Origin: an uncultured delta proteobacterium
GTDB lineage: Bacteria; Desulfobacterota; Syntrophia; Syntrophales; UBA8958
NCBI GenBank assembly: GCA_903885795.1
Contig: CAISJV010000056.1
Coordinates: forward strand, 1 to 64,000
DNA length: 64,000 bases
Direction: 5' to 3'
Numbering within the stretch: position 1 is the first letter of the stretch; every line of letters begins with the position of its first letter. Below are positions 1 to 10,486 of the stretch, one piece after another. The notes beneath the pieces were generated by a model. The model saw nothing but the letters and a program-made list of their open reading frames with translations, was not told where the DNA came from and did no database searches. A program made the position numbers and the translations under genes.

Positions 1-507
1 CGTGACAATTACCGCCCCCGATGTTGTCGCGTTATAGTTGGTATCAGTGGCCTTGGTGGCAGTCACGGAGCATGTCCCGGTGCCGCTGTTGGCTGTAAGC
101 GTTGAACCCGCTACCGTGCAACTGCCGGAAGCAGCATATGTCACCGCACCTGTGCCACTGCCACCCAACGTGCTCAGTGTCTCCGATGCAAGGTAAGCCA
201 GCGGAGTCGTGGCATTCACTGTCAAAGTCGCCTGATTGGCCTTGCTGAGCGTGACTCTTACCGCCCCCGACGTTGCCGCGTTGTAGTTGGTATCAGCATC
301 CTTAGTTGCAGTTACGTCACAATAACCGGTGCCGCTCTGAGCAGTAAGCGTCGAACCCGACACTGTACAACTGCCACCGCCACCGCCAGTGGCGGCATAA
401 GTTACCGCACCTGTGCCGCTGCCACCCGACGTGCTCAGCGTCTGCGATGCAAGGTAAGCCAGCGGAGTCGTGGCATTCACTGTCAAAGTTGCCTGATTGC
501 CCTTTCC
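1..507. repeat. In-frame tandem repeats (about 249-261 bp) encoding Ig-like domains
   Basis: Two nearly identical units can be aligned within the adhesin gene. A block starting CGATGCAAGGTAAGCC recurs at 184 and 445, and a block starting CGTGAC recurs at 1 and 250. The spacing difference of 12 bp comes from a short Gly-codon insertion in one unit. The period is 83-87 codons, so unit gain or loss stays in frame. More units may lie beyond the left edge. Confidence 0.85.
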
Positions 508-2970
508 AACCGAAATGCCCCCTGTTACCTGTGGCGCCGCGTTGTAATTTGCATCACCCGCCTGATTGGCTGCAATGGTGCAGGCGCCTGCAGCTACGCC
601 GGTGACTGTACTGCCGCTGATGGTGCATACACTGGTGGTTAATGAGCTGAAGGTAACCGCTAAGCCTGATGTGGCAGTAGCGCTCACTGTTGTTGTGCCG
701 CCCACCGCTAATGTGCTCGGTGTGAAAGTGATTGATCCTATCGTCTGATCGCCCTTCTGACTTACCAGGAAAATCTGCCCGGCAACGGTAATACTGCCGT
801 TCCTCCCCGGACCGGGATTGGCAGCCACGTTGTAAGTAATCGTCTGCGGACCGCCTGTGCCTGTACCGCTGACCGGTGCGAGGGCGGTGATCCAGGTTGC
901 GCCGGAGGTTACAGAAGCTGTCCAAGGGCAGCCAGCTCCCGCAGTTATTGTGAAAGAGTAGTTCCCGCCGCTTGTAGGAGGTGCTGCGCTGGCGGGGTTC
1001 AACGTATAGGTACATCCGCTGGCCTGATAGACCTCGAAAGGCTTCCAGCCTATGGTTATCGCATTGTGTCTTGCTGCTCCTGTATTGGCGGTTGCGGCAT
1101 AGGCGACAGACTGAGCCCCACCCGTGCCTGTTCCCCTGGCAGGGGTAACGGTGATCCAGGTATTGCCGTTATTGCTTGTGGTCCAGGGGCAGCCAGTTCC
1201 TGCTGTTACCGTGACAGTACCGTTGCTGCCAGCCGTCTTCGCAAGCGGTGAACCAACATTTGAGTCAGCACTGAGTGCATAGGTACAATTGCTCGCCGCC
1301 TGATAGACGGTGAAAGTCTGTCCGGCAATGTTTATATAGCCGGTCCTAGATGAGCCAGTACTATTGGTGGCAAGGGCATAGTTGACCGTTCCATTGCCTT
1401 TACCATAGGTACCTGATGTAATCGTGATCCAGTCGGAGCCGCCAACGCTCGATGCCATCCAGTAACAGTTTGATGTTGTTGTGACCATAACACTTCCAGT
1501 ACCGGCTGCCCATGTATAAGTTGCGTCTGTGGGTGAAATAGAATAAGTGCATGCCGTGTCCTGCGGGAAAAAAACGCTGAGATTGGCGATCGTTACCAGG
1601 TCATAAGCCCCGCCCGTTGCTTCTGTGAAGCCGAGATATATTTTGTCAAAATCAGAATGATCCTGTGCCGAGAGGGAAACGCCAGTCTTGACAATATTTG
1701 CAGCCGTATCCGTGTATTGTACAGTGACGTCCTGGAACTTGCTCTGCGTGAGACCGGAAAGAGTGTCCTTGCGGACAATCCAAGACCGAATTTCATACGT
1801 TCCGCTTGATGACGTTGGACGTACAATTTCTATCCTCACACTGTAGGGATATCCGTCTTCCATCCAGTTGCAAGTATTAGCCGAACTCAGACATGTTGTA
1901 GCTGCTCCGGCATAGAATCCGTGGTTAGTGCCTGAAACGTGATCTGCATTTTGAGGATCGGTACCTGAACCTCCAGCATTATGTCGGTTGTCATCAAAAC
2001 TCCCTTTGGGGCTATTATTGGAATTGCTGCAATTGCCGGACAGTGTTCTGGAACCCCAGAACATGATTGCAGTATGATTGCTATTGTAATTATTGCCAGT
2101 CGGATCATCTCTGCTTCCCGCTTGACAAACGTCATTAGTGCTATTTGGATAAACATCGAATTCCAGGGCCATTTTTGGCGGATTCAGACCAAGCTTGTCG
2201 GACGTATTTCCCGGACCGGCGTAACCCATTAGTTCCCCTTCGCTATAGGTTGACGGCGCCCCGGCAGTGCGGTCGATTGTGTTGTTTATGGCGCTCCAGA
2301 CAGCAAATGTGAATCCATCGCCATAGGTTGTGCTGCTGGCGGAGTGATCTTCTTGTTTGAAGGTAAAATCGAAATACACACGAAGGCCCAAACCAAAACT
2401 GCACTTACCGGCGACGCATGAGCCCACGGCATTGCCCCCTTGATACACTATATTGCCGTATGCGTCGTTTGTATTGTTGCCTAAAGTAACTGTATTCTGC
2501 GCGGAACCAGGACTAATTTCATTGAACACAATGGGGGAGGTGGGAAAAGTACCAGGGATAGGATTTATTGTGTAATTATCTTTGCGTCCCAAGTCTATAA
2601 TGGGGGGAGTCAGAGCCGCTGCAACATTAGTGTTATATGCGAGCTTTCTGTTGGCGGCAAGAAAGCTTCCCTGGTTAACGTTACCCACGGATTGGTACTG
2701 TTTGAGTCCACCGACGGTGGTACTCGTGATCGTGAAGGATTGGCCATCCGACATATTATAGGTGCCCTCCGGGGACAAGGCACTATTGAAGGCGGCATAA
2801 CGCAGTCCGGACTTTGCGAGTTGATAAGCATTATAGTCTCTGGTTGCCAGGAGCTCGCTGAAAGTGGAGGATGTGGTCAGGGTGTAGATTCCAGCTCCTA
2901 GCGCAGTCATCATGACGATCGCTATGATTATGGTCAACAGAGCAAACCCTTTTTGTTTTTTAAATCGCAT
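1..2970 (-). CDS. Minor pilin fused to lectin, BACON and Ig-like domains (putative pilus-tip adhesin; partial, C-terminus beyond window)
   Basis: One uninterrupted frame of 990 codons runs from an ATG at 2970 (SD GGAGG just upstream) to the window edge. Residues 1-30 are a class III signal-like N-terminus (basic, then GFALLTIII) without the Glu5 of major pilins, as in PilX/MshP/GspK-type minor pilins. Residues about 190-450 look like an L-type lectin fold (DGFTFAV, ALEFDVYP). Residues about 472-737 form three BACON-like repeats, each with a Cys, a Trp and a WIT motif. About 738-990 are Ig-like repeats rich in Thr, Ser and Gly. It is the last gene of a minor-pilin operon, like mshO-mshP-mshQ, but joins the pilin and lectin parts in one chain. 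Adhesion or tip function is inferred. Confidence 0.8.
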   Translation of the reverse strand, partial: MRFKKQKGFALLTIIIAIVMMTALGAGIYTLTTSSTFSELLATRDYNAYQLAKSGLRYAAFNSALSPEGTYNMSDGQSFTITSTTVGGLKQYQSVGNVNQGSFLAANRKLAYNTNVAAALTPPIIDLGRKDNYTINPIPGTFPTSPIVFNEISPGSAQNTVTLGNNTNDAYGNIVYQGGNAVGSCVAGKCSFGLGLRVYFDFTFKQEDHSASSTTYGDGFTFAVWSAINNTIDRTAGAPSTYSEGELMGYAGPGNTSDKLGLNPPKMALEFDVYPNSTNDVCQAGSRDDPTGNNYNSNHTAIMFWGSRTLSGNCSNSNNSPKGSFDDNRHNAGGSGTDPQNADHVSGTNHGFYAGAATTCLSSANTCNWMEDGYPYSVRIEIVRPTSSSGTYEIRSWIVRKDTLSGLTQSKFQDVTVQYTDTAANIVKTGVSLSAQDHSDFDKIYLGFTEATGGAYDLVTIANLSVFFPQDTACTYSISPTDATYTWAAGTGSVMVTTTSNCYWMASSVGGSDWITITSGTYGKGNGTVNYALATNSTGSSRTGYINIAGQTFTVYQAASNCTYALSADSNVGSPLAKTAGSNGTVTVTAGTGCPWTTSNNGNTWITVTPARGTGTGGAQSVAYAATANTGAARHNAITIGWKPFEVYQASGCTYTLNPASAAPPTSGGNYSFTITAGAGCPWTASVTSGATWITALAPVSGTGTGGPQTITYNVAANPGPGRNGSITVAGQIFLVSQKGDQTIGSITFTPSTLAVGGTTTVSATATSGLAVTFSSLTTSVCTISGSTVTGVAAGACTIAANQAGDANYNAAPQVTGGISVGKGNQATLTVNATTPLAYLASQTLSTSGGSGTGAVTYAATGGGGGSCTVSGSTLTAQSGTGYCDVTATKDADTNYNAATSGAVRVTLSKANQATLTVNATTPLAYLASETLSTLGGSGTGAVTYAASGSCTVAGSTLTANSGTGTCSVTATKATDTNYNATTSGAVIVT

Positions 2971-3530: not shown

Positions 3531-4259
3531 TCACCGTAACACAAACAAGGTCGTTAGCGTCTCATCGGTCCGGTTGCTCTCAGACAATGGGAGTCCGATA
3601 GTGACCTTGAGATATCGCCCGTATTCTGAATCGCCCATTGCTATGGCAACTTCGTTGCCTCCAACGAATTTGATGAACCTGTTCTGGATCACACGATAGC
3701 TGACGGTGTTAACGCTTGTGGAAGCACTGCCAAAGGTCTGGGTGTAGTCACTTCCTTCCAGGCCGATTTTGGTCTGTAAGGCCATAAGCGTTGGTGCAGC
3801 GGCGTAAAGTTGCCATATGACGCCGTTGTCCGTGACCGTGCATAATGCGTCCGGCGGAGTCAGACATACATGAGCACTTACCGTTGTGCCAGGGACCGGC
3901 CATCCCGGCTCATTATCTACAGTTGCGTCCTTTAATCCGCTTGTCCCGGGGGAGGTACATATGTATTGATACCCATAAGGTTCCTGTCTTCTCGTCGGTG
4001 TAGGAATTACAGTAGATCCAGTGATATATGGCGTGCCTGGACTCCAGCGGGGAATCTGATCGTATTCGGTCGTGATTATTTCCATGATCCGATTTAACTT
4101 TTCCGCCGCATTCAGTCTGAAGAATGGGAGAGAGCTCTGGGTAATTGATGTCCCGAAATAGGAAGCCATCATGGCCGCGACAATCGCGACAACAACAAGG
4201 GTAATAATCACTTCAATAAGCGTGAAACCGGATTCTGAATGATTTTTTCTCATCTTCAT
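3531..4259 (-). CDS. Prepilin-type protein (PilW/GspJ-like)
   Basis: A 242-residue protein beginning with a short basic leader and the prepilin motif SGFTLIEVIITL. The Glu5 is present, followed by one transmembrane helix. Size and operon position suggest a PilW/GspJ-like minor pilin. The middle is unusually Pro/Thr-rich, with several Cys between residues 85 and 125. Its ATG overlaps the stop of the upstream gene as ATGA, indicating translational coupling. Class assignment is inference; the prepilin nature is seen directly. Confidence 0.8.
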   Translation of the reverse strand: MKMRKNHSESGFTLIEVIITLVVVAIVAAMMASYFGTSITQSSLPFFRLNAAEKLNRIMEIITTEYDQIPRWSPGTPYITGSTVIPTPTRRQEPYGYQYICTSPGTSGLKDATVDNEPGWPVPGTTVSAHVCLTPPDALCTVTDNGVIWQLYAAAPTLMALQTKIGLEGSDYTQTFGSASTSVNTVSYRVIQNRFIKFVGGNEVAIAMGDSEYGRYLKVTIGLPLSESNRTDETLTTLFVLR

Positions 4260-4717
4260 GGTGTAATATATCCTGTGTAGGCGCTAACGGTCAGGGTGAT
4301 CGTAGAACCGCCCTGACTCAGGGTTATTGGTATATTTGCGTTTCCCGGGCTGCCCCAGGAATCAAAAGAGACTGTTGCGCCTGAAATCGTAACGCCGGAT
4401 CCGGTTGGAAATGCGTGGCTGTTCGAGCTTTCACCCGGAAGTTTGATGGAAGCGTCGGCAGTACCGGTTTTAAGGATATAGGAGGTGCCTGCAGAAAAAT
4501 TGATTCCCCATGAGGCCGATGTATCATCACTCAAAGCCTTTAACTGGGCAAAGCGCAGATGCGATTTCACAATATCCGCCTGCGGGATCAGCTCCTGGGC
4601 TGACATGCCGCGGCCAACAACGACGGCCGCGACGATGCCAAGAATAACCAATGCGGCAATCGCCTCGATGAGGGTGAATCCGCGGTTATCAGATGTTTTC
4701 TTATGAAACAGGTTCAT
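4256..4717 (-). CDS. Prepilin-type protein (FimT/GspH-like)
   Basis: A 153-residue protein with the motif RGFTLIEAIAALVILG. After the helix, the short body fits the small FimT/GspH class (AQLKALSDD, then alternating beta-type segments and a Gly/Ser-rich C-terminus). I chose the ATG at 4717 because a GGGAG element sits 5-7 bases upstream and gives a 13-residue leader. A longer reading from 4759 (167 aa) would overlap the upstream stop as ATGA and cannot be excluded. The gene is followed by the next pilin gene with an ATGA overlap. Confidence 0.78.
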   Translation of the reverse strand: MNLFHKKTSDNRGFTLIEAIAALVILGIVAAVVVGRGMSAQELIPQADIVKSHLRFAQLKALSDDTSASWGINFSAGTSYILKTGTADASIKLPGESSNSHAFPTGSGVTISGATVSFDSWGSPGNANIPITLSQGGSTITLTVSAYTGYITP

Positions 4718-4755
4718 GGTCTCCCTTCCATGTCCGGTGTATTTCATTCGTGATT

Positions 4756-5373
4756 TCATGTAATAGTAGCTGGACCTTCGGAGATCCGCTTATTCCACGG
4801 GCTGCAAGAGAGTGCGAGAAAAATACCGGCTGCGACGCTGGTGCCCGCGACTATGGCGAAAAAAGGAATCGGCAAGAGGACGGGTTTGAACTCCATAATC
4901 AAAAGCACTCCATTGAACACCACGGCCCCGATATACAAAAGGGCGGCGAACTTCGCCCCCTTGATTCCCGCTTTCGCATTTATTTTCAAGAAGAATCCCC
5001 AAAATCCCAACCAGACGGACAGCAATAAAGAGAGCCATGGCTGCAACACAAGAAGCGGCGAAACGAGCGCTACCTCATCTATGTTTTTCACGCCTATGAG
5101 TAAAACAATGGCGAGGGTCAGGTGGGCAAAAGCGACCAGCAGGAAATAAAAGCTTCTCTCTTCATTATTGATCATCGAGCTCAAGGCCCTGATCGGGTTA
5201 AGCGTGGACTCACGAGGCATGGTAAGGAATTGCCATGTGCGTGCGGCGACCCCTTGACGTTCCTCCATGACCTTCGCCATCACGCTGGTCGTGAAAAGGT
5301 CGGGGGTGGGCGCTTTCGGCGTCGCCTCCATTAGGTGGATCAAGTCTTTATAGTCGCTCATGTTATCGTTCAT
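4756..5373 (-). CDS. Four-helix membrane protein of unknown function, first gene of pilin operon
   Basis: A 205-residue protein with a cytoplasmic N-terminal part of about 70 residues (DLFTTSVMAKVMEE) followed by four strongly hydrophobic segments, near residues 75-95, 108-128, 140-160 and 165-188. The N-terminal layout, a short soluble domain before the membrane part, is reminiscent of anti-sigma-factor-like proteins, but no zinc motif (HxxxCxxC) is present and no sigma factor gene adjoins. It overlaps or abuts the downstream pilin gene and is probably co-transcribed. I do not recognise a named family. Confidence 0.65.
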   Translation of the reverse strand: MNDNMSDYKDLIHLMEATPKAPTPDLFTTSVMAKVMEERQGVAARTWQFLTMPRESTLNPIRALSSMINNEERSFYFLLVAFAHLTLAIVLLIGVKNIDEVALVSPLLVLQPWLSLLLSVWLGFWGFFLKINAKAGIKGAKFAALLYIGAVVFNGVLLIMEFKPVLLPIPFFAIVAGTSVAAGIFLALSCSPWNKRISEGPATIT

Positions 5374-5572: not shown

Positions 5573-5983
5573 TCACGGCTCGATTCTCTTTAGGCTGGCG
5601 ATGCGCGAGAGGTGCTTCCGATCGAAGGAATATACGTCGGTGATGTTCAGTTTTTCCATCAAGGCGGCAATATAACCGTCCACGATGTCTATGTTCTTGC
5701 CTTCATAATGATCCAGCGCCCTGGCCATGAGCGCACCGTTGATCACCTCCAGACCCGGCGTCGCCAGGATGGACCGGATCATGGGTGCGATTTCTCCGGG
5801 CTTCATATCGTATGACGATTCCAGTACCCAGATGAGTTCCACGAGCACGAGATCGGCAGTGATGAGCCGCACTTTGCCTTCGGACGCTTCACCGAGAAGC
5901 GCCTCGACGCGGTCGGCCTTATCAGCGTCATCATCGGTGAGGTACCGGACGAAGAGATTGGTATCAACGAAGCAGGCACTCAT
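5573..5983 (-). CDS. vapC: PIN-domain toxin (VapC family)
   Basis: A 136-residue PIN ribonuclease. The acidic metal-binding positions are visible: FVDTN near residue 7, the Glu of VELIWVL, the Asp of DIVDGYIAAL and the late DRKHL. VapC toxins cleave tRNA or rRNA in the cytoplasm when not bound by their partner. The ATG overlaps the stop of the antitoxin gene by 4 bases (ATGA), typical of TA operons. A longer frame upstream (to 6232) is antisense-free but only reads through the antitoxin gene out of frame, so it was not used. The RNA target is unknown. Confidence 0.88.
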   Translation of the reverse strand: MSACFVDTNLFVRYLTDDDADKADRVEALLGEASEGKVRLITADLVLVELIWVLESSYDMKPGEIAPMIRSILATPGLEVINGALMARALDHYEGKNIDIVDGYIAALMEKLNITDVYSFDRKHLSRIASLKRIEP

Positions 5984-6225
5984 TCGCTTTCCCCTTTGAC
6001 CATCGCGGCGACGGCTGCCTTGGCCCTGGCCCGTTCTTCGATGAAAGAGCCGGAACCTTTCGTCTTCACCGCGCCCCGGAAGGCCTTCAGCGTCCGGAGG
6101 GGTTGGATAAGCACTCTTTCGCCTTCCCGGATGAATGCAACCCGGTCGTTGGAGCAGATTCCCATTGCATCCCGGATCGACTTGGGAATCGTTACTTGAC
6201 CCTTGGCGGTAACCGTTGATAGCAT
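5980..6225 (-). CDS. vapB: AbrB/MazE-type antitoxin
   Basis: An 81-residue protein with a swapped-hairpin AbrB DNA-binding domain in the first 50 residues (TVTAKGQVTIPKSIRDAMG is the classic signature). The Ala/Lys-rich C-terminal tail probably wraps the toxin. It is preceded by a strong SD (GAGGAGG, 7-8 bases before ATG) and a near-consensus promoter at 6258-6286. It is likely autoregulatory together with the downstream VapC. Confidence 0.9.
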   Translation of the reverse strand: MLSTVTAKGQVTIPKSIRDAMGICSNDRVAFIREGERVLIQPLRTLKAFRGAVKTKGSGSFIEERARAKAAVAAMVKGESE

Positions 6226-6257
6226 AAATCAAACCTCCTCATTTTTTCTCACCCAAG

Positions 6258-6286
6258 ATAATATGTAAGAAAAGAAGATTTGTCAA
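6258..6286 (-). promoter_or_regulatory. Sigma-70 type promoter for vapB-vapC
   Basis: Read on the minus strand: -35 TTGACA (6286-6281), 17-bp spacer, -10 TATTAT (6263-6258). The start point would fall about 25 bases before the antitoxin ATG. Hexamers match the consensus at 11 of 12 positions. Confidence 0.7.
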
Positions 6287-6316
6287 CTGTTCTCTTGACA
6301 GAAAATTCCTTTCTCA

Positions 6317-6345
6317 TTGACAAATTACCGGCCTTGAATCATAAT
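6317..6345 (+). promoter_or_regulatory. Sigma-70 type promoter for divergent TA pair
   Basis: -35 TTGACA (6317-6322), 17-bp spacer, -10 CATAAT (6340-6345). It lies back to back with the promoter at 6258-6286, only about 30 bp away. It places the transcript start near 6352, which supports the ATG at 6376 over an in-frame start upstream of the promoter. Confidence 0.7.
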
Positions 6346-6375
6346 AACGCTACATTTGAACATCGAGGTAATGTC

Positions 6376-6633
6376 ATGCAAAATGCCGCCACGCTTCAGG
6401 GAGAGAAATTTATCGAGATCATCAAGAACATCGAACGCCTGACCTCTTCCCAGCAGAAGTTCATTCAGGATATGCTGTCGCAACGCACAAAGGTCCATAA
6501 AGCATCGGGAAAGAAGATTCTCCGGAAAAGTTTTGGATTGTGGGCCGATAGGAGCGATATTACCGACAGCCAGCAGTACGTAAGTACCCTTCGAAAAGGA
6601 TGGCAGGCAAGAGTTGAAAGGATCAAGAACTGA
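6376..6633 (+). CDS. Putative antitoxin partner of PIN toxin
   Basis: An 85-residue, mostly helical, basic protein (FIEIIKNIERL, then KKILRKSFGLW and a C-terminal WQARVERIKN). No domain is recognised with certainty. It is called an antitoxin because its stop overlaps the ATG of a PIN-domain toxin (TGATG) and because of its size. I chose the ATG at 6376, preceded by GAGG, since the longer frame (from 6280) starts upstream of the predicted promoter. Its expression is probably driven from 6317-6345. Confidence 0.7.
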   Translation: MQNAATLQGEKFIEIIKNIERLTSSQQKFIQDMLSQRTKVHKASGKKILRKSFGLWADRSDITDSQQYVSTLRKGWQARVERIKN

Positions 6634-7019
6634 TGCCCGCCTCTCTCCTTCTTGACAGCGATATTCTGATCGATCACCTGAGAAAGGAACAAAAAGCTCT
6701 TGATTATCTGCAACAGGAAATCGATGCCGGTTCCCTGCTTTTCATTTCGGTCATCAGCCGCACGGAAATATTCTCGGGGGCAAGAAAAGGTGAAGAAGAA
6801 ACTATCCAGGGCCTCTTTGATTTATTGACGCCGGTTGATGTGGACGTAGCCATCGCCGACCGGGCGGGAGAATATCTGAAAAAATGCTCCAAAAGCCATT
6901 CAGTTACTATCGGTGATGCAATTATTGCCGCCACAGCGAGAGAGATGGGAGGCGCCCTCGTCACCCGCAATCTGAAGCACTACCCGATGAAAGATCTCAA
7001 GATTATAAAGCCTTATTAG
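6633..7019 (+). CDS. vapC: PIN-domain toxin (VapC family)
   Basis: A 128-residue PIN nuclease with LLDSDILIDHL near the start, the conserved Glu in SRTEIFSG, IGDAIIAATA and a C-terminal TRNLKHYPM motif. These match the VapC catalytic positions. The start codon overlaps the upstream putative antitoxin stop by one base. It is divergent from the first VapBC pair and followed by repeat copy B. The target RNA is not predictable from sequence. Confidence 0.87.
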   Translation: MPASLLLDSDILIDHLRKEQKALDYLQQEIDAGSLLFISVISRTEIFSGARKGEEETIQGLFDLLTPVDVDVAIADRAGEYLKKCSKSHSVTIGDAIIAATAREMGGALVTRNLKHYPMKDLKIIKPY

Positions 7020-7029
7020 ACCTGAACAA

Positions 7030-7306
7030 TGGGGTCAGGTCTTGCCTTGACAGTTATCCATTAACGCCCTTTTCATTTTTCCGCCTACCGCCAAAAGCCT
7101 GAGCCCGTCTGTCCCTCATCTCCTGAATAACCCCATACCCGGCGTGGGCACTACGAAAGGTGAAAATAAACGGCAACTTGCCGGTATTTTCATATAAAAT
7201 CAGAGAAGTGGTGATTTTCCTTATTTGCGCCACGTACAACCGGGGGTGGGGGAAAGTCACATGGGGTTTTGATGTTTTGGTTAAATCGGCAAGGTTGAAC
7301 CAGCCT
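7030..7306. repeat. Interspersed repeat copy B (near full length)
   Basis: About 277 bp with four recognisable blocks. These are GGTCAGGTCTTGCCTTGACA near 7033, a CCTGAGCCCGTCTGTCC block near 7098, CGGCAACTTGCCGG near 7171 (a short palindrome), and the core/tail blocks at 7235-7261 and 7272-7304. Copy C at 8190-8471 matches it almost end to end. No coding function is apparent. It fills most of the gap between the PIN toxin and tumE. Confidence 0.88.
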
Positions 7307-7366
7307 CCATAAGTGGGGCTGGCAAGGGATTATGAGAAAGCCAGATAATCGGTGACTGTCTATGAT

Positions 7367-7750
7367 TTACCTCAGTAAATGATCTGAAATCTCGTTCAGT
7401 ACATTCTCAAATTCCGGAGGTTTGGATGGAATTATCAGCCCTGCGGGCAAATGCTTGTGCTCCCGGCTATCTAATTGCGGTTTATGGCTTGCGTTATCGT
7501 ATCGAAAGATCAATCCGCCTTCTCTGTTCTGGTAGTGCACCGAATAGGTCAATTTTCCAACGCCGTAGCGAAGATCCAGATATTCCATAACATAGAGAGT
7601 AGATTCATCTATGAAATCGATGCGGCCACGAATTATCCCAATCTTCTCCGATCGCAAATCAACACCCAGATCTGATGCCAGGATTAAATCAGCTCGGTTA
7701 TATTGCGCAATTATGGATCGGATGCGCTCTAAATATTCATGAAGCAACAT
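7367..7750 (-). CDS. tumE: TumE-like toxin (DUF6516 family)
   Basis: A 127-residue protein with the family pattern of TumE/DUF6516: N-terminal EYLERIRSII, a central LTYSVHYQN and LIFRYDNASHKPQ, then HKHLP. These proteins are toxin partners in TumE-TumA modules. The mechanism is not evident from the sequence. I chose the ATG at 7750; a TTG two codons upstream (7756) is also possible. It overlaps the upstream antitoxin gene by about 14 bases, showing coupling. Confidence 0.72.
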   Translation of the reverse strand: MLLHEYLERIRSIIAQYNRADLILASDLGVDLRSEKIGIIRGRIDFIDESTLYVMEYLDLRYGVGKLTYSVHYQNREGGLIFRYDNASHKPQLDSREHKHLPAGLIIPSKPPEFENVLNEISDHLLR

Positions 7751-8033
7751 ATTCAATATCCATAAGATTCTTCAAATCTTCGAATATACGTTCTCTTATT
7801 TGCAGCTCGCCAGCCCACTGTATGTATCCCAGATCGCCGTTTTTCATGTCCTCAGCCGTATAATTGCGGAGGAAATGATCGGAAGATATATTGTACTCCT
7901 TCTCAAATCGTTCGATCTGCCGGTTCGTCTTGGCAAGACCCAGTTCAAGCCTCTTGATTTCAGATGAGATCGCCGCCTGGATGATCACGACGACCTGATC
8001 CCGCTTACCTGAGTCAATCTGCAATCTTGTCAT
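7737..8033 (-). CDS. tumA: TumA-like antitoxin
   Basis: A 98-residue protein, strongly helical, with heptad-like stretches (ISSEIKRLELGLAKTNRQI, then ERFEKEYNISS and LQIRERIFEDLKNL). This composition and the overlap with the TumE-like gene support an antitoxin role. The SD is AGGGGG before the ATG. A promoter candidate lies at 8103-8131. Confidence 0.7.
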   Translation of the reverse strand: MTRLQIDSGKRDQVVVIIQAAISSEIKRLELGLAKTNRQIERFEKEYNISSDHFLRNYTAEDMKNGDLGYIQWAGELQIRERIFEDLKNLMDIEYVAS

Positions 8034-8102
8034 GGCTATGCCCCCTGGTGATGTTTTTCAAATTTTCCTGCTGGTTCAGGATTGCTCATTATCTCTGATT
8101 TG

Positions 8103-8131
8103 TTAATAATTACTATTTTCTATTTTAACAA
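8103..8131 (-). promoter_or_regulatory. Promoter candidate for tumA-tumE
   Basis: Minus strand: -35 TTGTTA (8131-8126), 17-bp spacer, -10 TATTAA (8108-8103), in an AT-rich stretch. The similar TGTTAATAATT and AACAATTATT segments make an imperfect inverted repeat across the promoter, a possible autoregulation site. Confidence 0.45.
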
Positions 8132-8189
8132 TTATTGAGGTAAAGCCTACATGGAAAGTGATTATTGTTCAAGAACAAAGTAAAAAAAC

Positions 8190-8471
8190 CGCGGGGTCAG
8201 GTCTTGCCTTGACAGTTATCCATTAACGCTGGTTTCATTCTTCCGCTTCCTGGCAAAAGCCTGAGCCCCTCTGTCCTTCAGCTCCTAAATTACCCCCATG
8301 CCCGAAGGCGGGCACAACGAAGGATGGAAATAAACGGCAACTTGCCGGTATTTTCACATAAAAATCAGATAAGCGGTGATTTTCTTTTTTTGCGCCATAT
8401 ACAACCAGGGTTGGGGAAAAGTCACATGGGGTTTTAATGTTTTGGTTAAATCTGCAAGGTTGAACCAGCCA
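8190..8471. repeat. Interspersed repeat copy C (near full length)
   Basis: The best preserved copy. It carries GGTCAGGTCTTGCCTTGACA (near 8195), CAAAAGCCTGAGCCCCTCTG (near 8252), CGGCAACTTGCCGG (near 8335), the core at 8400-8426 and the tail at 8437-8469. It is aligned with copy B in the same orientation. A 108-codon frame across it on the minus strand is judged spurious because it changes with the repeat. Together with 8472-8605, which has no visible gene, it fills the gap between tumA and the next TA pair. Confidence 0.88.
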
Positions 8472-8605
8472 AGAATCTTCCTCTATGAAATCAATTGGTT
8501 TTGTTGATGGCGACGCTTTATTGCGTTCAGGAAGCTGTTTTGTAAAATCATCGTAACCCAAAACCTAATATTTTCCACTGCTAATGGGCCTTTTCTAATT
8601 ATTGA

Positions 8606-8968
8606 CTATATCGGCAGGCGCCGTACTCGGATGAGCCCTTCATCTACACTTATGATGACACCCTTCTCAAGCGCTTCGACATGCATATCCATGATCATAT
8701 TCAGACATATATTGACGCGATCCGGATGCATGTTCCGAAGGCGGAATATGATTACACCGGGCGATTTGCCACCACTGGCTGCGAGGAGTTCTGCAAAATC
8801 AAGATCATGAGTCAATAGAACGCGTCCTTCATTTACAGCTTTTCCCAGGATAACTGAATCGAATGCCCTATGAAGACTTTGATCCTTCAGATGAACGGCG
8901 TCATGCGCCAAAGAATTAAGGAAGGAAACCGTCTTAGGGGAAATGCCCATGTCGGCAAGAAATTTCAT
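8606..8968 (-). CDS. DUF5615 family PIN-like toxin
   Basis: A 120-residue protein with the DUF5615 layout: MKFLADMGIS (early Asp), HLKDQSLHRAFDS, the VLLTHDLDFAELLA motif (THDxDF) and GVIIFRLRN. These proteins are PIN-like nucleases usually paired with DUF433 antitoxins, as here. Start and preceding stop overlap as ATGA. The ribonuclease function is a family inference. Confidence 0.82.
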   Translation of the reverse strand: MKFLADMGISPKTVSFLNSLAHDAVHLKDQSLHRAFDSVILGKAVNEGRVLLTHDLDFAELLAASGGKSPGVIIFRLRNMHPDRVNICLNMIMDMHVEALEKGVIISVDEGLIRVRRLPI

Positions 8969-9201
8969 GCCGTTTTTGTTTCCATTGGATATAGCTCCTC
9001 TTCAGCCAGCCATGCAGCGTAATGAAGTGCCTGGCGTATGTCGTCGGGTTCGATATAAGGATAAGTGTCAAGTATCTCCTCTGTGCTCATTCCATCGGCT
9101 ACCAAGTTCAGGATCAATGACACAGTTACACGCATACCCCGGACGCATGCACGCCCTCCCATGATCTGTGAATCAAAGGTAATTCGATCAAAGCCGATCA
9201 T
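8965..9201 (-). CDS. DUF433 family antitoxin
   Basis: A 78-residue protein with the DUF433 signature: IMGGRACVRGMRVTV, then LVADGMSTEEILDTYPYI and DIRQALHYAAWLAEEE. The family is a winged-helix-like DNA-binding antitoxin. I chose the ATG at 9201, because GGAGG lies 8 bases upstream; an alternative at 9216 would overlap that SD. It is coupled to the DUF5615 toxin gene. The predicted promoter is at 9233-9261. Confidence 0.85.
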   Translation of the reverse strand: MIGFDRITFDSQIMGGRACVRGMRVTVSLILNLVADGMSTEEILDTYPYIEPDDIRQALHYAAWLAEEELYPMETKTA

Positions 9202-9232
9202 AATACAGTCCTCCATTGACTCCGTTTATCTA

Positions 9233-9261
9233 TTAATACCACCGGTCAGCTTATTTGTGAA
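9233..9261 (-). promoter_or_regulatory. Promoter candidate for DUF433-DUF5615 pair
   Basis: Minus strand: -35 TTCACA (9261-9256), 17-bp spacer, -10 TATTAA (9238-9233). The -35 lies inside the decayed HEPN gene, so the promoter may have arisen from, or been preserved in, the remnant. Confidence 0.45.
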
Positions 9262-9354
9262 GAGAAAATCGCGTGAAAGCAGCAAGCATCATAATTCGGC
9301 GATTTCCGTGCCCGCAATTCCCTCAAGGCCGTCGCAAAATCGCCTTCCCCTTTG
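9246..9354 (-). pseudogene. HEPN-domain protein remnant (N-terminal part)
   Basis: In the frame after the MNT stop, the minus strand encodes a stretch containing GDFATALRELRARKSPNY then DACCFHA, typical of the first helices of HEPN toxins. It then runs into a stop at 9246. The family continues with QQxAEKxLKA, which is missing. It is too short for a working gene and no start codon is obvious. Confidence 0.65.
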
Positions 9355-9504
9355 TCAAGCTATTCTTGCGTTATCTGCTTCATACAGTACAGCGCCCTTT
9401 TCAATGATATCTTTTAGGAAATAATCGTTCATGGCCAATCTTCGCTGAACCTGATCCGATGTGCGTACGAGGAGATCTATCGGGAAGACCGGAACAGCAC
9501 CGAG
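9355..9504 (-). pseudogene. MNT-type nucleotidyltransferase remnant (C-terminal part)
   Basis: An open stretch of 49 codons on the minus strand encodes FPIDLLVRTSDQVQRRLA followed by MNDYFLKDIIEKG and VLYEADNA. This is the C-terminal end of minimal nucleotidyltransferase (MntA-like) proteins. The catalytic GSxxxG part is absent; in-frame stops lie upstream. With the HEPN remnant directly downstream it marks a broken MNT-HEPN toxin-antitoxin pair. Confidence 0.68.
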
Positions 9505-9552
9505 TCAACAAATTCTTTCTTACCTGATGGTCATTTTCTTTCTGCGAGATGC

Positions 9553-9738
9553 ATACAATCAGGGGTTTAAAAAAGTCAAATGTGGTTTTAAAAATCTGTG
9601 CCCGTCTGTCCTTCATCTCCTGAATAAAATCAGAGAAGGGGTGATTTTCTTTGTACGTGCCATGTACAACCAGGGTTGGGGAAAAGTCACATGGGGTTGT
9701 GATGTTTCGGCTCAATCCGCAAAGACTGAACCAGCACA
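9553..9738. repeat. Interspersed repeat copy D with degenerate extra core
   Basis: Core at 9665-9691 and tail at 9702-9735 match copies B and C. A weaker core-like segment (ATACAATCAGGGGTTTAAAA at 9553) and a short GCCCGTCTGTCCTTCATCTC block precede it. Much of the left half is missing. The repeat fills the gap between the MNT remnant and the last VapC gene. Confidence 0.75.
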
Positions 9739-9767
9739 AGGCCAGCGGCGCGCAGTATTCGGTCGCC

Positions 9768-10189
9768 CTATGCTATTTGTTGCGATTTTACGGCCAATTT
9801 ATCTGCCGCTTGGAGCAGGTGCTGGTCTGATGTAACCAGTGTAAAATCGCCTGCTGAGGCAATGGCAAGGTGAAGGGCATCGAGCGTTTTTAGTGACGTG
9901 CTGAAAAGGCCGATCCAGCCACGGGCAATCCGCCAGTGTTGAGATTCGAGGGAGATGATTGTAAACAGTCCGCCATCCAGGTGGGACAAGAATTTCGATA
10001 AAATACGGTTCCCATCCAATGAGCTAAGTTCTCCCATCCGAACTTTCTTTGCAACTGCAGAGAAAAACTCTACATCTGTCAGATCGCTAACGGCAGGCTT
10101 GAACTGATCAGCCAGAAAGGATTGAACTTGTTCACTCGAGGTCTCCGGACAATAATAGGCGACCAAGACGCTCGTGTCGATGTAATACA

Positions 10190-10190
<1 letters not shown>
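9768..10190 (-). CDS. vapC: PIN-domain toxin (VapC family)
   Basis: A 140-residue PIN nuclease: YIDTSVLVAYY, the Glu of DVEFFSAVAKK, TLDALHLAIA and TSDQHLLQAA supply the four acidic catalytic positions. The ATG at 10190 shares one base with the antitoxin stop (TGATG); a TTG one codon earlier is an alternative. It is partnered with a Phd-type antitoxin. The RNA target is unknown. Confidence 0.9.

Positions 10191-10486
<296 letters not shown>

Follow-up and report, generated by a model that had tools for sequence, protein, structure and literature searches.

A candidate pilus-tip adhesin joining a Glu5-less minor pilin to lectin-family and BACON domains in an uncultured Syntrophales bacterium

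In MSHA pili, the minor pilin MshP is encoded beside a large lectin-like protein, MshQ, the C-terminus of which we take to be DUF6701. PilC of Streptococcus sanguinis is a proven lectin pilin with Ig-like and ConA-like lectin modules and has been modelled at the pilus tip (PMC9934059). A survey of modular type IV pilins, for which the entry criterion was IPR012902, the GFxxxE-type motif, collected more than 1,200 proteins in 264 architectures, including lectin-like and PA14 modules (PMC8179133). In published systems, the K subunit (PilX, GspK) lacks Glu5 and tops the minor-pilin complex (PMC9934059; PMC7541494); in Myxococcus xanthus, PilX contacts and stabilises PilY1, a tip adhesin that is exported separately (PMC7541494). 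How the pilus tip keeps hold of a separately made adhesin of the PilY1 kind is, for the most part, still a matter of inference.

The window analysed here is a stretch of 64,000 nucleotides from an uncultured bacterium of the order Syntrophales (genome G000). At its first base lies a gene in which a Glu5-less minor pilin is continuous with a lectin-like region, BACON domains and Ig-like repeats. Relatives encode the same kind of lectin both fused to such a pilin and as a separate protein, and this fused/split series suggests how sugar-binding adhesins get mounted at pilus tips.

The gene and its minor-pilin cassette

The gene occupies window positions 1-2970 on the minus strand as a single uninterrupted open frame of 990 amino acids, which starts with an ATG at 2970, has GGAGG directly upstream and runs off the window end without a stop. 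Because window base 1 is also the first base of contig C56, the gene must have been cut by an assembly break. Over 141 bases, the end of another contig, C13 (6,083 bp), is identical to window 1-141, and C13 continues the frame with the final 85 residues and the stop; the tail encoded there is 56% identical to the corresponding repeat/tail region of the homologue L044, a likeness that supports the join. Across both contigs the protein comes to about 1,075 amino acids, which is a lower bound, as is the repeat number, because the break falls within the repeats. The pilin-lectin-BACON order recurs in two named records annotated as Syntrophaceae, in which the pilin-lectin part is 61% and 46% identical to that of the window protein; this argues against a frameshift and confirms, at the level of sequence comparison, that the fusion is genuine. 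The features discussed below are as follows.

1-2970, minus strand: modular minor pilin with lectin, probably in the K position, 990 aa (85 aa more on C13, 5685-5942)
2617-2970, minus strand: prepilin part, residues 1-118, with leader MRFKKQKG, hydrophobic helix and short globular part
1561-2493, minus strand: L-type lectin domain, as supported at family level, residues 160-470
751-1551, minus strand: three BACON domains (Pfam PF13004), residues ~474-740
1-744, minus strand: Ig-like/MBG-like stalk repeats, residues 743-990, ending at the contig end
2981-3544, minus strand: J-like minor pilin with GFTLIE, the true start probably lying inside the frame
3531-4259, minus strand: I-like minor pilin with an insert resembling CBM5/12 (module W..T.Y..G..V.PT..GTSG..EP.W)
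4256-4759, minus strand: H-like minor pilin, best weak equivalog match GspH
4756-5373, minus strand: membrane protein preceding the cassette in the window and in relatives, candidate anti-sigma factor

The leader MRFKKQKG is followed by the mature N-terminus FALLTIIIAIVMMTALGA (FALLT...), with a hydrophobic N-terminal helix in which mature position 5 is Thr, not Glu. Glu5 is likewise absent from all 25 relatives compared (18 of them fused, the other 7 stand-alone K pilins). The gene is the last of an H-I-J-K cassette, an order shared by the minor pilins of T4aP and T2SS, with three pilin genes directly upstream both in the window and in relatives; the labels H, I and J reflect gene order and weak matches, the H and J pilins matching Gsp models weakly. 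None of the PilX_N, PilX or GspK family models in Pfam and NCBIfam matches the window protein. Its cassette position, the missing Glu5 and its homology to other K-like pilins together indicate that it probably holds the K (PilX/GspK), tip-capping position. Having a predicted prepilin N-terminus and a non-pilus domain on one chain, it belongs by its sequence with the modular type IV pilins. In the Pfam scan, the window protein gave no match at E 0.1 to PF07963, the Pfam model of the GFxxxE-type motif, and K pilins of this Glu5-less kind were therefore probably missed by the IPR012902-based survey.

The insert in the I-like pilin is conserved and is matched as CBM5/12 in four of the seven members of alignment A5 (best E 0.019) and is a putative second carbohydrate-binding part of the tip complex. 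By eye, the I-like pilin of L044 carries two such inserts. In relatives, an ECF sigma factor often adjoins the membrane protein that precedes the cassette, and this protein is possibly an anti-sigma factor. Further upstream, window 5573-10193 contains what appear by eye to be several PIN-domain-like toxin-antitoxin genes; in some relatives the ECF sigma factor lies there.

The lectin, BACON and stalk regions

Taken alone, the window lectin domain (residues 160-470) matched no lectin family model, and its identity emerges at the level of the family. PF18483 (Lectin_L-type) matches 9 of 20 and later 17 of 28 family members, with a best value of 8.3e-12, and PF00139 matches 6 of the 28. When a profile of the 28-member family was compared with all PDB sequences, legume lectins were recovered almost exclusively (best E 2.2e-4), in an alignment spanning a region that ends in EFDTYPN; the single window protein and a 7-sequence profile gave no match in the PDB search, for which broader profiles were needed. 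In an alignment of 28 divergent sequences (A4, window numbering), E270, D272 and D289 do not vary, and conservation of H299 is 90% or more. These residues, together with Y274 and N276, we take to be the legume-lectin metal site (Mn/Ca ligands), in the same order, and D218 in GDGFTF is presumably the sugar-binding Asp of legume lectins. It is these family-level matches and the conserved metal motif, rather than the window protein by itself, that support residues 160-470 as an L-type lectin domain. An AlphaFold prediction of the pilin and lectin parts, made from three sequences only, had a mean pLDDT of 29. Weak matches to Ntox30 and Thi_PPkinase_C (E 0.05-0.13) were dismissed as chance.

Downstream of the lectin, PF13004 (BACON) matches the window protein in three stretches, scoring 40.7 bits (cut-off 25; 2.3e-10), and the Ig-like region that follows is repetitive, with 126-nt direct repeats that are 89% and 79% identical. 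An earlier note on this DNA, made from the sequence letters, had read the frame as a Glu5-less pilin N-terminus joined to a lectin-like domain, three BACON-like repeats and Ig-like repeats. The uninterrupted 990-aa frame with Thr5 and the three PF13004 stretches bear out this reading, and the lectin-like domain stands through the Pfam and PDB matches of its family, the window protein alone matching no lectin model.

The tail of the K pilin is otherwise exchangeable, relatives having PA14, MBG, glycine-rich, CBM5/12 or unknown domains. The K pilin of the nearest relative (L044, 8001-12413) is 1,470 aa long and carries, after the lectin and one BACON domain, two PA14 domains, two MBG domains, He_PIG and a glycine-rich domain. 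Another large C-terminal domain family on K pilins, A6 (L031, L035, L038-L043), has the motif SYDLQxK ... DDFAIQ; neither the lectin profile nor any solved structure showed a detectable relation to this YDLQxK-type tail.

Fused and separate forms among relatives

In the table inspected, the lectin domain occurs in 21 of the 155 genomes of the order. Fusions to a short K pilin are present in the window genome and in L024-L027, L044, L045 and L123-L125, and in L131 a long K (~320 aa) is fused to a lectin that is 54% identical to a stand-alone one. A separate lectin protein, in most cases with a Sec signal peptide as judged by eye, is found in L126-L129 and L132-L135. Wherever its neighbour is on the contig and readable, the stand-alone lectin comes after a K-like pilin of 305-376 aa, and the K and lectin genes adjoin in L126, L127, L129, L132, L134, L135 and L169; no K was recognised beside the lectin of L133, and in L128 the K pilin is truncated by the contig end. 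Near a contig end in L130, an apparent K-pilin end and the lectin share one frame, possibly a further fusion. The two halves of the window protein correspond to the separate partners: residues 4-132 match a stand-alone K pilin (e-10), and residues 157-657 match a stand-alone lectin-BACON protein (e-108). A gene pair that is fused in some genomes and split in others is the usual genetic sign of two proteins acting together, and with the same lectin occurring both free beside K and fused to K, the genetic case for an action of the free form on K is a good one.

The earlier note had suggested looking for the same architecture in other Syntrophales, and the fusion is indeed present in relatives within the order; the separation of pilin and lectin that it described for other systems is also found, since several genomes within the order encode the two as separate neighbours. 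It had further held that split genes in related genomes would speak against the fusion. Taken literally, such split genes exist, yet the nearest relatives are fused, and the fusion is therefore not an error.

The fusion in L131 probably arose separately from that of the window, because its lectin is 54% identical to a stand-alone one and its K is of the long type. A tree test in which L130 was counted as split weakly rejected a single clade of fused K-lectins (p-AU 0.043; 0.086 without L131). At least two fusion events are thus weakly suggested, with the L131 architecture weighing as much as the tree. More widely, a sample of the phylum contained the domain at E 1e-10 or better in 12 of 395 genomes. 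One or two K-lectin fusions, in tandem with further K paralogues, are present in genomes of another family (L166, L167, L174), some of which are assembled in one or two contigs, and family f74 contains both fused and split forms (L169-L171). In L172/L173, a divergent lectin is mounted on a Glu5-type pilin.

Several further arrangements were noticed. In L166, L167 and L174, J is followed by two or three tandem K-like paralogues, of which one or two bear an L-type lectin. In L135 (G092), two pilin cassettes lie back to back and oppositely oriented; a split lectin belongs to one, a different K of 436 aa to the other. Single frames of ~1,100-1,280 aa in L030, L031, L035, L036 and L040 contain two prepilins in one polypeptide, in the order J-like prepilin, CFI-box-CTERM, hydrophobic stretch, K-type prepilin and large unknown domain; the CFI-box-CTERM part matches NCBIfam at 1e-18 to 1e-22, and many genomes of the order have frames of about this length. 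Our literature search found no paper for the term CFI-box-CTERM.

All ten stand-alone lectins, L130 being counted among them, contain AQKTITTY or a close variant; in those with a visible signal peptide, it sits close to the mature N-terminus. The motif is present in no lectin region of the window protein or of the 18 fused relatives; one match in L045 lies in the pilin region and was taken as chance. It was spotted after the sequences had been viewed and is thus a hypothesis, not a prior prediction. Within these bounds, the AQK-type motif is a candidate docking peptide, and this short stretch, which the fused forms lack, is suggested as the contact. With a little less than even confidence, we propose that the L-type lectin-BACON proteins are a distinct class of Desulfobacterota tip adhesins, equivalent to PilY1, and that they would dock via the AQKxxTxY peptide at their mature N-terminus on a Glu5-less K and would have been fused to K more than once. 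If this is true, the fused and split pairs offer a direct route to mapping the attachment of a tip adhesin to K.

Filament machinery, tip function and comparison with known systems

Several type IV filament systems are encoded in the genome, their machinery lying on contigs other than that of the cassette. A pilus locus on contig C2 comprises PilQ, a PilM-like protein, a PilB-like ATPase that carries a c-di-GMP domain of the MshE type, and a pair of genes resembling major pilins, and it may be this machinery that serves the cassette. Other secretion-type ATPases are present, including a pair on contig C1 that is PilT-like in appearance. The MSHA framing given in the earlier note is not supported: in a secretin comparison that covered the C2 locus, the secretin scored 331 bits with PilQ (cut-off 284) and 108 with MshL (cut-off 250), and the cassette has the general H-I-J-K order. 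The Pfam scan of the window protein also listed no DUF6701. The pilus-tip adhesin that the same note proposed is, in contrast, the best reading, with tip location and binding presumed from sequence. The relevance to syntrophic contact that it suggested finds no support in these data.

We consider it likely that the gene product takes the K (PilX/GspK) position in a type IV pilus tip complex and carries its adhesin on the same chain. Cleavage by prepilin peptidase would follow Gly8, and the Glu5-less helix would place the K-lectin topmost on an H-I-J-K priming complex. As the pilus extends, the L-type lectin, held out on its BACON and Ig-like stalk, would be brought to the filament tip, where it may bind a glycan in a metal-dependent manner. 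In relatives with split genes, the separate lectin-BACON protein would leave via its Sec signal peptide and dock on the longer K, perhaps by its AQK(T/V)xTxY N-terminus; fusion would take the place of docking. Such a protein represents a concrete glycan-recognition candidate for environmental, mostly uncultured anaerobes.

No PilY1 (PF05567) was found in the window protein or in the G000 genome; each of the ten further family members sampled has a match. Replacement of PilY1 by the K-lectin fits G000 and its family, and across the order the two are not mutually exclusive: PilY1 occurs in 13 of 21 lectin genomes and in 67 of 133 others (Fisher p 0.36).

The tip-lectin anatomy set out above is also compatible with a variant in which the ligand is the cell's own exopolysaccharide and not a partner cell or foreign surface, the lectin serving as an anchor for the matrix or for retraction. 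We regard this as a realistic possibility, although not the expected outcome. The lectin type is silent on whose glycan is bound, the I pilin bears a second putative carbohydrate-binding insert, and the binding of Myxococcus pili to the cells' own exopolysaccharide is established (PMC9109919); nothing in our data, however, separates own from foreign glycans.

It is unlikely that the cassette instead belongs to a T2SS-like system, with the K-lectin capping a short periplasmic pseudopilus and the lectin recognising a secreted glycoprotein or polysaccharide substrate. The H-I-J-K order is also that of T2SS, two of the upstream pilins, H and J, give weak matches to Gsp models, and GspK, which lacks Glu5, is a proposed site of substrate contact in T2SS (PMC7541494). 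However, the genome has a separate T2SS-like locus on C88 with its own I-J-K set, the K of which matches the GspK model, below its cut-off, and in some relatives (L124, L129) MshA-like major pilins or a GspF-like gene lie near the lectin cassette. A BACON and Ig-like stalk would, moreover, fit surface display better than the periplasm.

A jelly roll that has decayed into a stalk or docking part and no longer binds sugar would agree with how weakly the window protein resembles lectin models, but the invariance of the metal-site Glu and both Asp in 28 sequences, with the His at least 90% conserved, makes this improbable. An artefact of assembly or annotation that joined two neighbouring genes is hardly credible as the source of the fusion and in our judgement already contradicted: relatives with split genes exist and the gene sits at a contig end, but the pilin-lectin junction is ~2.5 kb away from that end and the same fusion recurs in many independent assemblies, including the one- and two-contig genomes of another family.

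Returning to the tip adhesin, modular and lectin pilins are already known; what sets the present case apart is the Glu5-less K as carrier, the L-type lectin and the natural split/fused series. In the open-access literature, we found no paper on this combination. Like the modular pilins of the published survey, the window protein has foreign functional domains grafted onto a pilin, and it would extend them to the Glu5-less K subunit, a class outside the design of that survey. As in PilC, a type IV pilin module bears Ig-like and lectin modules. PilC, however, has Glu5, a galectin-like lectin, a monoderm host and no reported BACON domain, whereas the window protein presents an L-type lectin with a legume metal motif on a Glu5-less K subunit. 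With legume lectins (PF18483/PF00139), the window lectin shares an EFDTYPN-like motif, metal ligands and an ADG-type motif in the same order, but it is bacterial, larger, equipped with cysteines and inserts, and mounted on a pilin. MshP-MshQ resembles the split K/lectin form, although the machinery locus of the window genome on C2 is PilQ-type, not MshL-type. The PilX-PilY1 tip complex of type IVa pili, in which a Glu5-less PilX atop the minor pilins carries a signal-peptide-exported adhesin from the same cluster, is, through the work in M. xanthus, the closest functional precedent; here the adhesin differs, an L-type lectin with BACON domains instead of PilY1, and is fused to K, so that by analogy the fusion would be a covalent version of that arrangement with another adhesin.
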